Source: an uncultured Flavobacteriales bacterium (GTDB taxonomy: Bacteria > Bacteroidota > Bacteroidia > Flavobacteriales_G > Salibacteraceae). Taken from it: a stretch of DNA of 64,000 bases. Shown here one piece after another: positions 56,071 to 64,000 of the stretch. Every line of letters starts with the position of its first letter. Within the stretch, counting starts at the first letter, position 1. The position numbers and the translations under genes were made by a program. Under the pieces are notes generated by a model that worked only from the letters and a program-made list of their open reading frames with translations, ran no database searches and had not been told where the DNA came from. The stretch covers positions 310,001 to 374,000 of the forward strand of contig CALSRO010000002.1 in the NCBI GenBank assembly GCA_943788775.1. The letters are read 5' to 3'.

Positions 56071-56616
56071 ATGAAAACACTATTTATTGTGCTCTCCATT
56101 GTAGGGCTCTCTCTTGTGCCTGCATCCATGACAATTCATCAATTTACCATGACGGACATCGATAGTGAGGACGTGAGTTTATCCGATTTTAAAGGCAAAG
56201 TCATGTTAATTGTGAATGTTGCAAGCAAGTGTGGGCTCACCCCACAGTATGAAGACTTGCAGAAATTGTACGATGAAAAGAAAGATGAAGGATTAGTCAT
56301 ACTCGGTTTTCCAGCCAATAACTTTATGAGCCAAGAACCGGGAACTGATGATGAAATTCAGTCCTTCTGCCAAAAAAACTATGGAGTCACATTCCCAATG
56401 TTTTCAAAAATATCGGTGAAGGGAGATGACATTCATCCTCTCTACCAATTTCTGACTGAGAAAGAAAAAAATGGCGTCATGGATAGTAGCGTGAAATGGA
56501 ATTTTCAGAAATATCTATTGAATAAAAATGGGGAGTTGGTTGAAGTAATTCCACCAAGTACCAGCGTTCTTAAGTCAGACGTTCAAGACCAGATTGATGA
56601 GTTGTTGGCTCAATAG
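56071..56616 (+). CDS. Exported glutathione peroxidase-family protein
   Basis: This 181-residue GPx-fold peroxidase reduces peroxides with thioredoxin or glutathione. The peroxidatic Cys54 is in NVASKCGLTPQY. The Gln/Asn region is GFPANNFMSQEPGTDDEI, in which the usual Asn-Gln has changed to Asn-Asn, and WNFQKYLLNKNG carries the Trp. A signal peptide (residues 1-19) predicts periplasmic or lipid location. In Bacteroidota such enzymes often use thioredoxin rather than glutathione. Confidence 0.92.
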   Translation: MKTLFIVLSIVGLSLVPASMTIHQFTMTDIDSEDVSLSDFKGKVMLIVNVASKCGLTPQYEDLQKLYDEKKDEGLVILGFPANNFMSQEPGTDDEIQSFCQKNYGVTFPMFSKISVKGDDIHPLYQFLTEKEKNGVMDSSVKWNFQKYLLNKNGELVEVIPPSTSVLKSDVQDQIDELLAQ

Positions 56617-61418: not shown

Positions 61419-61453
61419 CATAAAAAAAGCCCCTATTGGGGCTTTGTGGAGAA
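61419..61453. repeat. 35-bp direct repeat, copy 1, containing a terminator hairpin
   Basis: This segment is identical over 35 bases to 61796-61830. It holds an inverted repeat AAAGCCCC TATT GGGGCTTT, preceded by further A residues on the + strand, so it ends transcription of the - strand. It begins with CAT (ATG of the - strand) and ends in TGTGGAGAA, which on the - strand is the 3' acceptor end of a tRNA (TTCTCCACA). Confidence 0.9.
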
Positions 61454-61455
61454 TA

Positions 61456-61496
61456 CCGAAATAAGATGATTTTTCCTTCGGAATCATCTAATTCGG
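61456..61496. repeat. Imperfect inverted repeat (hairpin)
   Basis: CCGAA ... TTCGG arms enclose a perfect GATGATT / AATCATC stem (61465-61471 with 61482-61488). It lies between the tRNA-like sequence and the terminator repeat. Its arms resemble the TCCCGA/TCGGGA hairpin inside the tRNA-like sequence, which suggests a shared origin. Confidence 0.6.
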
Positions 61497-61500
61497 GACA

Positions 61501-61571
61501 TGCTGGATGGGAGTCGAACCCACGACCTTCCCGAATGCTTTCGGGACGCTCTATCCATTTGAGGTAATCAA
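61501..61571 (-). other. tRNA-like sequence, degenerate
   Basis: Read on the - strand it has a D-arm-like CTCAAATGGATAGAGC and a canonical T-arm GTGGG TTCGACT CCCAT. In the anticodon-arm position is a hairpin TCCCGA AAGCAT TCGGGA, whose loop lacks the conserved T33 and has the wrong length. The 5' and 3' acceptor strands do not pair. It is therefore not a working tRNA. The D-arm also supplies the stop codon of the GIY-YIG gene. Confidence 0.7.
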
Positions 61572-61798
61572 CCAATCAATGTACTTCCTAGACTTTTTTG
61601 ATTTTATCTCCGCCTCTCGCTTTCTGGCTTCAGGTCGGGTGTTGTGAGACTCTGAATGCTTTAGAATCCATGGTATTCCGGGCTTTGTATACTTCGATCG
61701 CCCTCGGTTATGGTCCGATATTCTTCTGTTCAAATCATCACACGACCCGACATAATATCGATCCAATTTCCGCTGTATATGATATAAACATAGAACAT
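61551..61798 (-). pseudogene. GIY-YIG family nuclease, frameshifted near its N-terminus
   Basis: The main frame (61551-61766) reads LDRYYVGSCDDLNRRISDHN, with an Arg and a Glu (KREAEIKSKKSRKYIDWL) that match the GIY-YIG active site. The missing GIY part, MFYVYIIYSG, is found just upstream from ATG 61798 in another frame. One extra A in the AAA at 61767-61769 joins the two as SGK-LDRYYVG, giving a normal 82-residue protein. The ATG directly follows the poly-T of the terminator repeat, and the end runs into the D-arm of the tRNA-like sequence. Such small GIY-YIG nucleases are commonly found close to tRNAs in Bacteroidota. Confidence 0.82.
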
Positions 61799-61830
61799 AA
61801 AAAAAGCCCCTATTGGGGCTTTGTGGAGAA
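61796..61830. repeat. 35-bp direct repeat, copy 2, containing a terminator hairpin
   Basis: Identical to 61419-61453. The two copies flank the GIY-YIG gene plus tRNA-like module, 377 bases apart, as expected for a tandem-duplicated or mobile unit. Confidence 0.9.
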
Positions 61831-61860
61831 GATGGGAGTCGAACCCACGACCTCTTGATA
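61822..61860 (-). pseudogene. 3' half of a tRNA, truncated at the anticodon loop
   Basis: On the - strand this reads TATCAAG, AGGTC (variable loop), GTGGG TTCGACT CCCAT (T-arm) and CTTCTCC ACA (3' acceptor). The sequence stops matching a tRNA upstream at 61860, inside the anticodon arm, so the 5' half is missing. The spurious SNPRPLD translation is a typical trace of a tRNA T-arm. The amino acid identity cannot be read. Confidence 0.75.
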
Positions 61861-62245
61861 CATTAGCACAAAAGACTCCACATAGTCAAACTAAAAAGTC
61901 CGTATTACTCAAAGGGAATGGCTCTGATCTATCGGACACTAAAGCGCTACAAGGCAGGGCAAAACGAAAGTTAATTTCTCAAAGTTTGGCTTTGAGCCTC
62001 ATTGACATTGCAAAAGAAAACGAAGACAATGAAAGCCTAAAATCCTTCTGGAATTTCTACCACTGCCAAAACAAGCTTCACACCCATAACAACCGTATTC
62101 ATGGCAATTATTGTAAAAGTCACATTTGCCCGATTTGCTGCGCTAATCGAAAGGCTGATTTGATAAACCGTTATTTGCCCGTTGTTTTATCTTGGCCAGA
62201 CCAGCAATTCTTAACCCTTACAAGTAGATCGGTAAAAAAAAATAT
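61861..62245 (+). pseudogene. Fragment of a plasmid-type replication (Rep) protein
   Basis: An open frame without a start codon begins at the tRNA break and reads SDLSDTKALQGRAKRKLISQ, FWNFYHCQNKLHTHNNR, YCKSHICPICCANRKADLIN and VLSWPDQQFLTLTSRSVK. The Cys-rich CxxxxCxxC-type cluster followed by F-L-T-L-T resembles the N-terminal part of rolling-circle-type Rep proteins of small Bacteroidota plasmids. The frame ends in unrelated codons after a run of nine A residues near 62234-62242, so the 3' catalytic part is lost. The start is also missing. It is a remnant of an inserted replicon. Confidence 0.6.
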
Positions 62246-62272
62246 CGTTCTTTGCAGGTTCAAAATATTGTT

Positions 62273-64000
62273 ATGGGCAAATTAAAGGCGAGACAAGGAT
62301 TATTAAAGGCTTCAATCTTGATGTTTGCACTTGGATTCTTGCATCAAACTTCTCAAGGTCAAGACACAACGGCCTTTTTAACCTCAAGCACAACTTCCAT
62401 TTGCTTAGGTGATACTGCCACTCTAAATGCGGGTACAGTTAGCGCGTATTATGGTGATGGATCAGATGGAGCGCTTACTGTCAGCTCAGGAACAGCATAC
62501 ACCGATGCATTAAGAACTGGCGTAACAGGGACCAATGCAGCAGGCGGAAACACATTAACTGTTGCATCTTCAAGCGGCTTTGCTGTTGGTGATGAAATCA
62601 TCATCATAACAATGGTAGATGCTGCTACTTCAGGTAATACAGTGGGTCAACATGAGTTCAACATAATCACAGCTATTAGCGGAAATACATTTACGCTGGC
62701 TACCTTAAGAACCAATGCTTTTAATGCTTCGAGCACGCAAATACATCAGGCCATTAAGGTACCTAACTATACTAATGTTTCTATTTCTGCAGGCGCTATA
62801 CTTACTTGTAATACATGGAATGGCTCCACAGGAGGCGTTTTGTGCTTTAGAGCAAACGGCACTTTAACCAACTCAGGAACAATTACTTCAAGCGGAAAAG
62901 GTTACCGAGGCGTTGGTCACAATGCAGTTTGGCGCAACAAGAATGGCGCTCAAGGTGAAGGAATATATGGTACTGGCTACGCTGGAGGGAGCTCTAACGG
63001 AAGTAACAGCGTCACTTGGAATGGTGCCAATGGTAATGGTGGCGGTGGCGGCACCGGACGTCAAGATTCTGGTGGAGGCGCTGGTGGCGGTGATGCATCA
63101 AACGGAACTAACGGAACTAACCAGGGTAGTCATTTTGGTGGCACTGGAGGCCTTTCGGTAGGTACAGCAAACTTAGAATTATTGATCATGGGTGGCGCTG
63201 GAGGCGAAGGTGGCGGTGACGAAGATGGCCAGAAACCTGGATATGGCGGAGATGGTGGTGGAATTATCTACATTAGTGCTTCGGTTACTCAAAATGCTGG
63301 CACCATTACTTGTAACGGCCAAAACGGTGGCAACGGAACTGGTGGTGGATGCGGTATGGGTGGTGGCGGTGGTGGCGCCGGTGGATCCATAAAATTAATT
63401 AGTGTTTTCAGCGGCAATGGCACTATTACTAGCCTTGGCGGTAATGGAGGCACAAATAATGGATGCGGTGGACCAGGAGGTGCAGGTTCTGTTGGTAGAA
63501 TAGCACTAGCCTCAACCATATCTTCATATCCTACTACTAACCCTGTATCAGCTACAGCAAGTTTAGCGGTTATAACAGGTTCAAGCTATGCCTGGAGCAA
63601 TGGCGACACCACGTCTTTTATACAAGTAAGCCCAGCAACAACAACAACTTATACGGTTACTATTTCCAATGGAAATTGGGCAGATACATTATCTCAAGAA
63701 ATCTATGTTTTTGGTGTGCCAAACATGCCCGTAGGATTAGCCGATATTGAGCATTGCGCAGGCACTTTTACATTTAATGCGACTACAGATAGCTTGGTAC
63801 AAACAGTTTGGTATGACACTGATACTGGAGGTACGCCAATCTCTTATGGTAATGAATTTACTACGCCTTTCTTAAACGACACCACAACCTATTATTATTC
63901 TTCTCAATATATAACCTATACCCCACCGGCAGATGCCGTTGATAACAGCATGCAATTGGCCCTTGGTTTAAGATTGCTCGTTTCTGACTATGAAGGCAAG
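62273..64000 (+). CDS. Glycine-rich secreted adhesin-like protein, 3' end beyond the window
   Basis: The frame is open for 576 codons from ATG 62273 to the window end. Residues 1-31 form a signal peptide (LKASILMFALGFLHQTSQGQ). After a region with TSICLGDTATLNA comes a beta-rich domain of about 170 residues, and then a Gly/Asn/Ser-rich region (residues 205-410) with many short GG runs and a few Cys. Thereafter Ig-like repeats (SYAWSNGDTTSFIQVSPATTTTYTV) appear. The pattern is that of large T9SS-exported surface proteins, but the sorting domain lies outside the window. Codon use in the Gly region (GGT/GGC-rich) differs from its neighbours. Confidence 0.85.
   Translation, partial: MGKLKARQGLLKASILMFALGFLHQTSQGQDTTAFLTSSTTSICLGDTATLNAGTVSAYYGDGSDGALTVSSGTAYTDALRTGVTGTNAAGGNTLTVASSSGFAVGDEIIIITMVDAATSGNTVGQHEFNIITAISGNTFTLATLRTNAFNASSTQIHQAIKVPNYTNVSISAGAILTCNTWNGSTGGVLCFRANGTLTNSGTITSSGKGYRGVGHNAVWRNKNGAQGEGIYGTGYAGGSSNGSNSVTWNGANGNGGGGGTGRQDSGGGAGGGDASNGTNGTNQGSHFGGTGGLSVGTANLELLIMGGAGGEGGGDEDGQKPGYGGDGGGIIYISASVTQNAGTITCNGQNGGNGTGGGCGMGGGGGGAGGSIKLISVFSGNGTITSLGGNGGTNNGCGGPGGAGSVGRIALASTISSYPTTNPVSATASLAVITGSSYAWSNGDTTSFIQVSPATTTTYTVTISNGNWADTLSQEIYVFGVPNMPVGLADIEHCAGTFTFNATTDSLVQTVWYDTDTGGTPISYGNEFTTPFLNDTTTYYYSSQYITYTPPADAVDNSMQLALGLRLLVSDYEGK

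Follow-up and report, generated by a model that had tools for sequence, protein, structure and literature searches.

The locus described here raises the question of whether a small GIY-YIG nuclease gene lodged among pieces of a broken tRNA gene is the accident of a single genome or a unit that recurs, and perhaps moves, among related bacteria. It lies on contig C2 of genome G000, within the window, by which we mean the whole 64,000-nucleotide stretch analysed, and comprises the following features.

61823..61858, minus strand: tRNA-Ala(GGC) 3' remnant, nt 40-75, without a 5' half (36 bp, 100% identical to the intact tRNA-Ala)
61796..61830, minus strand: first copy of a 35-bp repeat, consisting of tRNA acceptor end, terminator hairpin with T-run, and ATG
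61551..61798, minus strand: GIY-YIG (UPF0213/SLX1-like) nuclease gene, frame broken near 61775-61760 (PF01541, E=9.6e-12)
61547..61569, minus strand: remnant of the 5' part of a pseudo-tRNA (D arm, ...GGATAGAGCG), sharing bases with the end of the GIY-YIG gene (judged by eye from tRNA-Ala GATGTAGCTCAGTTGGCTAGAGCG)
61529..61546, minus strand: palindrome TCCCGAAAGCATTCGGGA replacing the anticodon arm
61506..61528, minus strand: second copy of the tRNA-Ala T arm (23 bp, 100%)
61454..61505, minus strand: hairpin-forming insert between the pseudo-tRNA T arm and acceptor end (by eye)
61419..61453, minus strand: second copy of the 35-bp acceptor end and terminator

The minus-strand layout proposed in the initial annotation is present at base level in all its parts, in the order tRNA-Ala 3' remnant, terminator, GIY-YIG gene, tRNA-like copy, hairpin and 35-bp repeat. 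The two copies of this repeat (TTCTCCACAAAGCCCCAATAGGGGCTTTTTTTATG, 61830-61796 and 61453-61419) are 100% identical, the duplication of acceptor end and terminator thus being as claimed, and the sequence likewise bears out that the nuclease ATG (61798) directly follows the terminator T-run and that the stop codon (TAG, 61553-61551) falls in GGATAGAGCG of the tRNA-like D arm. The tRNA 3' half placed upstream is there in so far as 61858-61823 equals nt 40-75 of the intact tRNA-Ala(GGC) of the same genome, found on contig C4 (G000:C4:487-561), over 36 identical bp, but no intact tRNA stands at the site and the 5' half has been lost. ARAGORN called no intact tRNA in the window, and Rfam at the gathering score matched no family there. 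The frame opened by the ATG differs from that of the GIY-YIG body, with the break near 61775-61760, so that the assembled gene is interrupted, whether this is real or an assembly error. The window unit is a decayed member of its kind, with the nuclease frame broken and the tRNA 5' half gone. The pattern TCCCGAAN{0,10}TTCGGGA finds a single match in the window, the palindrome at 61546-61529, and none in 100 shuffles (0/100), and this palindrome string recurs at a tRNA-Ala unit in a different host family (L127). In the maximum likelihood (ML) tree described below, a tRNA-Ala-linked GIY-YIG protein from another host family (L109) is the sister of the window protein (SH-aLRT 91).

One further feature of the window concerns the surroundings of the lost tRNA gene.

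56071..56613, plus strand: glutathione-peroxidase-like (gpx) gene (named by eye); in related genomes its relatives are found immediately upstream of tRNA-Ala(GGC), whether a GIY-YIG gene is present or not

The gpx-like gene marks the ancestral tRNA-Ala locus, and the window unit lies about 5 kb from it on the opposite strand. Sister loci have the order gpx, tRNA-Ala, Cys-rich genes; in G000 the gpx gene is on C2 and the intact tRNA-Ala lies close to the beginning of C4, next to Cys-rich genes that resemble those found after tRNA-Ala in the sister genomes. From this separated layout it is probable that the genome was rearranged with a break in tRNA-Ala, by steps that the contigs do not allow to be followed exactly. 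The 36-bp identity with the C4 tRNA-Ala and the nearby contig ends had prompted the view that the window tRNA half belongs to an integrative element. This was rejected, as no integrase was evident by eye in the seven ORFs of at least 100 aa beyond the half on C2 (the Pfam scan near the C2 end covered only three proteins, two of them among these seven), and we therefore claim only a rearrangement. Beyond the tRNA half C2 carries surface-protein genes and then the IS1595 end. The surface-protein ORFs (L012:6253-15937, equivalent to G000:C2:372252-381936 and starting at window position 62252) are very large; one has HYR and CHU_C type IX secretion domains, the next gene is PorP/SprF-like by eye, and an IS1595 transposase fragment lies near the contig end of this region. 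Overlapping the tRNA remnant is a 154-aa ORF (window 61821-62285, plus strand) with weak likeness to an IS91-type zinc-binding domain and a rolling-circle Rep_1 domain (E 0.005 and 0.017, both below cut-offs) and to a Di19 zinc finger (E 0.0027); it is perhaps a mobile-element remnant tied to the tRNA-Ala break.

Units comparable to that of the window are widespread. A protein search of 35 genomes of the window's family gave a match at 1e-6 in 19, and a tRNA was called in the stretch at 22 of 30 same-family loci fetched. When a 16-row alignment (A1) was used as query against genomes at least 90% complete, matches were found in 22/29 genomes of the order (1e-9), 148/396 of the class (1e-20) and 174/392 of the phylum (1e-15), although not every one of these last was checked for a tRNA. 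We assembled a neighbourhood set of 121 units scoring at least 45 bits in 96 loci, repeats removed, and classed them by the nearest intact tRNA. In 77 units a same-strand tRNA lies within 200 bp (52 upstream, 25 downstream), a further 22, largely members of tandem arrays, have a same-strand tRNA farther away, and 22, several of them at contig ends, have none in the stretch; an opposite-strand tRNA was not seen in any (0/121). Counted by locus (n=96), the same-strand tRNA is within 200 bp in 76, within 500 bp in 3 and beyond in 1, with none in the stretch in 16 and none opposite. The best-scoring new loci from genomes outside A1, 25 in number and not a random draw, agree: 23 have a same-strand tRNA within 300 bp and none an opposite one, and in the remaining two the gene is less than 300 bp from a contig end. 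Likewise, 20 of 23 loci from a named collection have a same-strand tRNA in a stretch of about 3 kb; these loci include Roseivirga thermotolerans, Algoriphagus sediminis and a Croceitalea, and are also found in metagenome-assembled genomes labelled Omnitrophota, Parcubacteria, Chloroflexi and Verrucomicrobia. In contrast, of 21 GIY-YIG loci with low scores taken from the same genome family, 16 have no tRNA in the stretch and 5 have a same-strand one. Some units carry stop codons. At one locus (L147/L029, G021:C1) genes resembling IS3-type transposases by eye separate a tRNA-Met from its GIY-YIG gene.

Two arrangements account for the anatomy of these units. In type B an intact tRNA is followed by a terminator, the GIY-YIG gene, a copy of the tRNA 3' part and often the same terminator again; in type A a copy of the tRNA 5' part (a pseudo-tRNA) precedes the GIY-YIG gene and the intact tRNA, and in some cases (L230 and L237, by eye) the stop codon of the gene is the tRNA's own TAG at nt 8-10. 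For the 77 units with an intact tRNA within 260 bp, a partial duplicate of this adjacent tRNA was found across the gene in 61 at E<=1e-4 (48 at 1e-7), compared to 0/77 in each of the shuffled, reverse-complement and other-isotype controls. A looser criterion gave 65 units, with 3 in the shuffled, 2 in the reverse-complement and 18/77 in the other-isotype control; 16/77 units lack a duplicate at E<=1e-4 and 12 lack even a loose one. Breaks, mapped on the 65 units, are internal to the tRNA gene, in the D loop, anticodon region or T loop, and their positions recur. In type B Met units the copied 3' part begins at nt 47-49 in 12 of 15 (the others at 20, 55 and 58), and type A breaks fall at nt 22-23 in 10/13 Ala, Arg and Val units and at nt 27-29 in 5/8 Pro units. 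Whole units also repeat as tandem arrays of 2-10 genes with a repeat length of about 320-475 bp, e.g. a 322-bp unit four times at tRNA-Pro (L099), a 365-bp unit five times at tRNA-Met (L098) and a 457-bp unit, with ten genes called, at another tRNA-Met (L096). GIY-YIG gene, tRNA part and terminator fill these 322-457 bp units. Not every unit fits a simple scheme in which the lost tRNA half is restored, as G018 has, 3' of the gene, a pseudo-tRNA of another type than the intact tRNA of the host. A separate locus (L019, G034:C23, match-strand 1377-1455) has ahead of its gene a pseudo-tRNA that looks chimeric by eye, with a tRNA-Pro 5' half joined to a tRNA-Tyr (GTA)-like anticodon arm and 3' half, and another (L039, G025:C35) has five tandem GIY-YIG genes with palindrome-rich spacers and no tRNA in the stretch.

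Comparison of filled and empty sites shows insertion at existing tRNA loci. Of 101 genomes in the genus to which G406 belongs, 97 match the upstream flank with its tRNA-Met, and of 30 such loci fetched 29 have the tRNA and no GIY-YIG gene while that of G406 is occupied by an array of five units. Aligned to an empty site (G495, L260), the G406 locus matches through tRNA and terminator; the match then resumes at tRNA nt 27 and runs on into the flank downstream. These two matches overlap by 97 bp, a duplication of tRNA part plus terminator, and the filled site differs by the insert and this duplication. In 20 of the 29 empty sites the tRNA has the same sequence as the intact one of the filled genome. 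At the gpx - tRNA-Ala locus of the window's family, a tRNA-Ala is present in the stretch at 8 of 30 loci fetched, and of these three have a GIY-YIG gene (G018, G021, G030), four do not (G011, G012, G015, G004) and one is cut by a contig end. For a type A unit at tRNA-Arg(ACG) in the genus of G361 the sample is thinner than for Met and the distance from tRNA to matched gene varies: against one occupied locus, 6 of 24 others have a same-strand tRNA without a GIY-YIG gene (5 of the 6 with a promoter flank similar by eye), one has a tRNA on the other strand and 17 have none in the stretch. A search for empty sites from the prolyl oligopeptidase flank of L088 yielded none: although the flank is conserved, none of the 29 other stretches has a called tRNA. 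With GIY-YIG genes abutting tRNA genes within 200 bp at 76 of 96 loci, a one-off rearrangement, which the initial annotation had named as the outcome that would refute it, is ruled out. Its further proposal of a repeatable unit that moves or duplicates at tRNA 3' ends is supported by the many relatives with units at tRNAs, by the arrays and by the empty sites, but requires amendment as to place, the breaks being internal to the tRNA and on the 5' side as well as the 3'.

An ML tree was built from 111 proteins over a short alignment (79 columns), with 53 of the 108 inner branches open, and each unit was labelled by the nearest same-strand tRNA within 1.7 kb. On this tree tRNA isotype changes 27 times over 77 loci compared to a mean of 52.0 (lowest 47) when labels are shuffled. 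Host family changes 49 times, compared to a shuffled mean of 51.6 (lowest 48). The protein tree thus follows tRNA isotype and not host, a little host signal not being excluded (49 versus the lowest 48), and isotype switches do occur, as the 27 changes attest. A Met clade of 24 rows has an SH-aLRT of 98, and its Met-labelled rows span 11 host families. By eye, the tRNA 5' end also encodes the final few residues of type A proteins, and a few of the 79 columns are consequently not independent of isotype. Among 278 pairs with dS of 0.1-1.5 no dN/dS exceeds 1 (median 0.53), and the 16 closest pairs give 0.00-0.31; these pairs include tandem copies, which are not independent, and distant pairs are near saturation. 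On this measure the nuclease is evidently under purifying selection in close pairs.

These data bear on two other accounts of the family. tRNA genes are common insertion sites, and the units could be passengers in a safe harbour, where recombination at tRNA hot spots and ordinary tandem duplication of tRNAs, which does exist (L134), combine with drifting GIY-YIG genes and the nuclease has no role in insertion. The frequency of insertions at tRNA genes lends this some support, but a protein phylogeny that tracks isotype across host families, the lack of any opposite-strand case, break positions that recur per isotype (nt 47-49 in 12/15 type B Met units) and purifying selection all run counter to it, and we doubt it strongly. 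The second account, in which selection keeps the units as modules of benefit to the host, draws on the same purifying selection, though an active selfish nuclease would likewise show it, and on the absence of opposite-strand cases, which fits co-transcription with the tRNA. Either the nuclease or the anticodon-less tRNA-like RNA could serve, e.g. as decoy or trigger against tRNA-cleaving toxins, or in phage defence or counter-defence; phage SegB amplifies tRNA-Tyr and so overcomes the Septu defence (PMC13096335). However, distribution is patchy (148/396 genomes of the class and 174/392 of the phylum, at different thresholds), the unit is missing from 29 of 30 orthologous tRNA-Met loci of one genus, some units have stops, and PADLOC gave only weak matches, to PDC-S14, in 2/5 proteins (E 0.002-0.004). 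We consider a host benefit unlikely.

What the protein itself might recognise is suggested by its relatives. Profile searches place it nearest UPF0213 (1ywl 1e-14, 1zg2 3e-14) and then the structure-specific nuclease SLX1 (1e-7), with I-TevI matched only at 0.007. Given this likeness, the enzyme may be a nuclease that recognises structure, with hairpins of tRNA-gene DNA or the palindrome as its substrate, an inference made without cleavage data. UPF0213/YhbQ-type GIY-YIG proteins (COG2827) belong to the same domain family by profile, and low-scoring relatives mostly have no tRNA neighbour (16 of 21 loci). No NCBIfam model was matched above cut-off, the weak match in 2/5 proteins being to a group I intron endonuclease model, and PHROGs gave a weak homing endonuclease match for 4 of 16 members (best E 2.5e-4). 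A group I intron was considered and rejected, since at the Rfam gathering score nothing was found in the window and only tRNAs in 10 loci with units; the homing-type nuclease domain (PF01541 in the window) thus sits outside any Rfam intron. Phage origin was also rejected: two query proteins found no match at E 1e-5 in 50,697 phage records, and viral contigs gave one weak match for the first query and none for the second. A plasmid search gave one weak match.

A palindrome (score at least 7) is present at the break in 45 of the 65 units defined by the looser duplicate criterion, compared to 3.1 expected from shuffled windows (single-letter shuffles) and 3/65 in mid-gene windows; the other 20 have none, and the sequence varies between isotypes and hosts. 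The window's own TCCCGA..TCGGGA was considered as a dispersed repeat of its genome and rejected, with only 5 places versus 3 in the control. A CCTGCC..GGCAGG palindrome (CCTGCCTGCCGGCAGGCAGG), searched with up to 2 mismatches, has 23 copies in G071 (control 0); five other genomes have 1-5 copies each, and G000, G016 and G207 have none. Of the 23 places in G071, 20 were read by eye: 11 are inside a dispersed repeat, one is at a GIY-YIG unit, one lies just before a tRNA-Pro, one is in a pseudo-tRNA-Met with an added Met-type palindrome and no GIY-YIG gene in the stretch, and 6 are elsewhere. Within copies of the dispersed repeat (CGTCATTCCGAGC...AGCGAGG/AATC; L319-L328 and L330, G071:C2, 1.20-1.23 Mb and 1.456 Mb) the position of the palindrome is nearly constant, as if it had been inserted. 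The pseudo-tRNA-Met (L332, G071:C2:2682600-2683600, 1 kb without a GIY-YIG gene) has two different palindromes, which by eye occupy the anticodon-loop position and the T arm. To judge from these places, the palindrome can exist apart from the nuclease. Its role as a possible recognition element, put forward in the initial annotation, stays conjectural: palindromes are strongly enriched at the breaks, but one of them is also scattered elsewhere in a host genome. RAYT transposases move REPs, and it is conceivable that the palindrome, not the tRNA, is the substrate, an SLX1-like enzyme cutting cruciforms at dispersed palindromes and so moving them, with tRNA copies as favoured landing places. The palindromes at 45/65 breaks, the SLX1 similarity and the dispersal in G071, which extends to another repeat and to a pseudo-tRNA-Met lacking a GIY-YIG gene in 1 kb, could all be read in this way, but we regard it as very improbable in view of the differing sequences between isotypes and hosts, the rarity of TCCCGA..TCGGGA in the window's genome (5 versus 3), the absence of CCTGCC..GGCAGG from G000, G016 and G207, and the 20/65 breaks without a palindrome. 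REP/RAYT systems have dispersed palindromes near the enzyme gene and a Y1 transposase; the gene of the present unit encodes a GIY-YIG nuclease, and the one palindrome counted across genomes numbers 23 in G071, 1-5 in five others and 0 in three.

Other known systems share parts of this organisation. tRNA 3' ends host integrative elements, a direct repeat of the tRNA 3' end being the result, and such a repeat is common to the units here; unlike integrative elements, however, units of about 320-475 bp are too small for an integrase, and type A duplicates the 5' part. No larger element was delimited around the window copy. In fungal mitochondria, homing endonuclease insertions bring a replacement end for the host gene, and double-hairpin elements also occur. 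The units resemble these in having a nuclease gene within a host gene, a duplicated end that keeps this gene working and hairpin elements nearby, but the mitochondrial insertions are in protein genes and those described here in bacterial tRNA genes. Presence or absence at a fixed locus, as in the Met, Ala and Arg cases, is likewise a property of free-standing homing elements. The closest known is SegB of T-even phages, a free-standing GIY-YIG homing endonuclease in a tRNA gene region, for which homing is reported and where tRNA and segB together are amplified in tandem via breaks and recombination (PMC13096335, PMC2988022). The GIY-YIG gene in a tRNA region and the tandem amplification are common to both. 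SegB is phage-borne, however, and no tRNA isotype preference was seen in the account of it (PMC13096335), whereas our units are in bacterial chromosomes and have strong isotype fidelity; they also split and partly duplicate the tRNA gene itself, with a palindrome at the break. Among the matches listed by an open-access literature search (titles and abstract openings; few subscription journals, no preprints) we found no such unit in bacterial chromosomes, and a term search of a GIY-YIG superfamily analysis found no 'Bacteroidetes' and 'tRNA' three times in passing (PMC1564403).

The consistent view, which we consider probable, is that these units are a widespread family of isotype-specific, homing-like selfish elements that enter tRNA genes and leave one intact tRNA, cleavage and transfer being inferred. 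To judge from comparison of sequences, from which both insertion and isotype fidelity are evident, the unit is real, recurrent and apparently mobile; nuclease-driven homing, i.e. the cutting of the element-free allele and preferential inheritance, remains an inference. Comparison further shows that one intact tRNA is kept and that the second copy has become a pseudo-tRNA, its break lying where many units of the same isotype are broken and usually marked by a palindrome. In the predicted mechanism the nuclease would cut the cognate tRNA gene, or structures formed by that gene, and repair from an element-bearing copy would install the unit together with a tRNA half, keeping the host alive. The element would in this way spread as a selfish, isotype-specific and homing-like entity without intron or splicing, and repeated cutting or unequal recombination could generate the tandem arrays. 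On this reading the lineage of the window has a broken nuclease frame, and a rearrangement has split its unit from the tRNA 5' half. Several observations do not sit easily with this mechanism. The adjoining intact tRNA retains the presumed target, being identical in 20/29 empty sites, and avoidance of self-cutting is therefore unexplained. A lone GIY-YIG domain of about 85 residues has no visible DNA-binding domain that would confer isotype specificity. Moreover, 16/96 loci have no tRNA in the stretch, 16/77 units no duplicate and 20/65 no palindrome, and the array L039 is without a tRNA.

More tentatively, and with rather less confidence than would make it our expectation, the family may constitute a mobile element of a new class, a parasite of tRNA genes that has one gene and no intron and in which an SLX1-like nuclease recognises a structure of the tRNA gene or palindrome, keeps to one isotype across distant hosts, duplicates half a tRNA for survival and has the palindrome disable the leftover copy. 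tRNA genes are essential, and a parasite inside them must avoid killing its host; the units seem to spare the host without splicing, since an intact tRNA remains and the second copy is disabled. Members of the gene family are common, with matches in 174/392 phylum genomes (E 1e-15), and vary in isotype. The family offers an account of the arrays of small GIY-YIG genes and the tRNA fragments that lie beside tRNA genes, a compact system for asking how a nuclease of about 85 residues can target one tRNA gene, and a chromosomal parallel to the amplification of tRNA by phage SegB.
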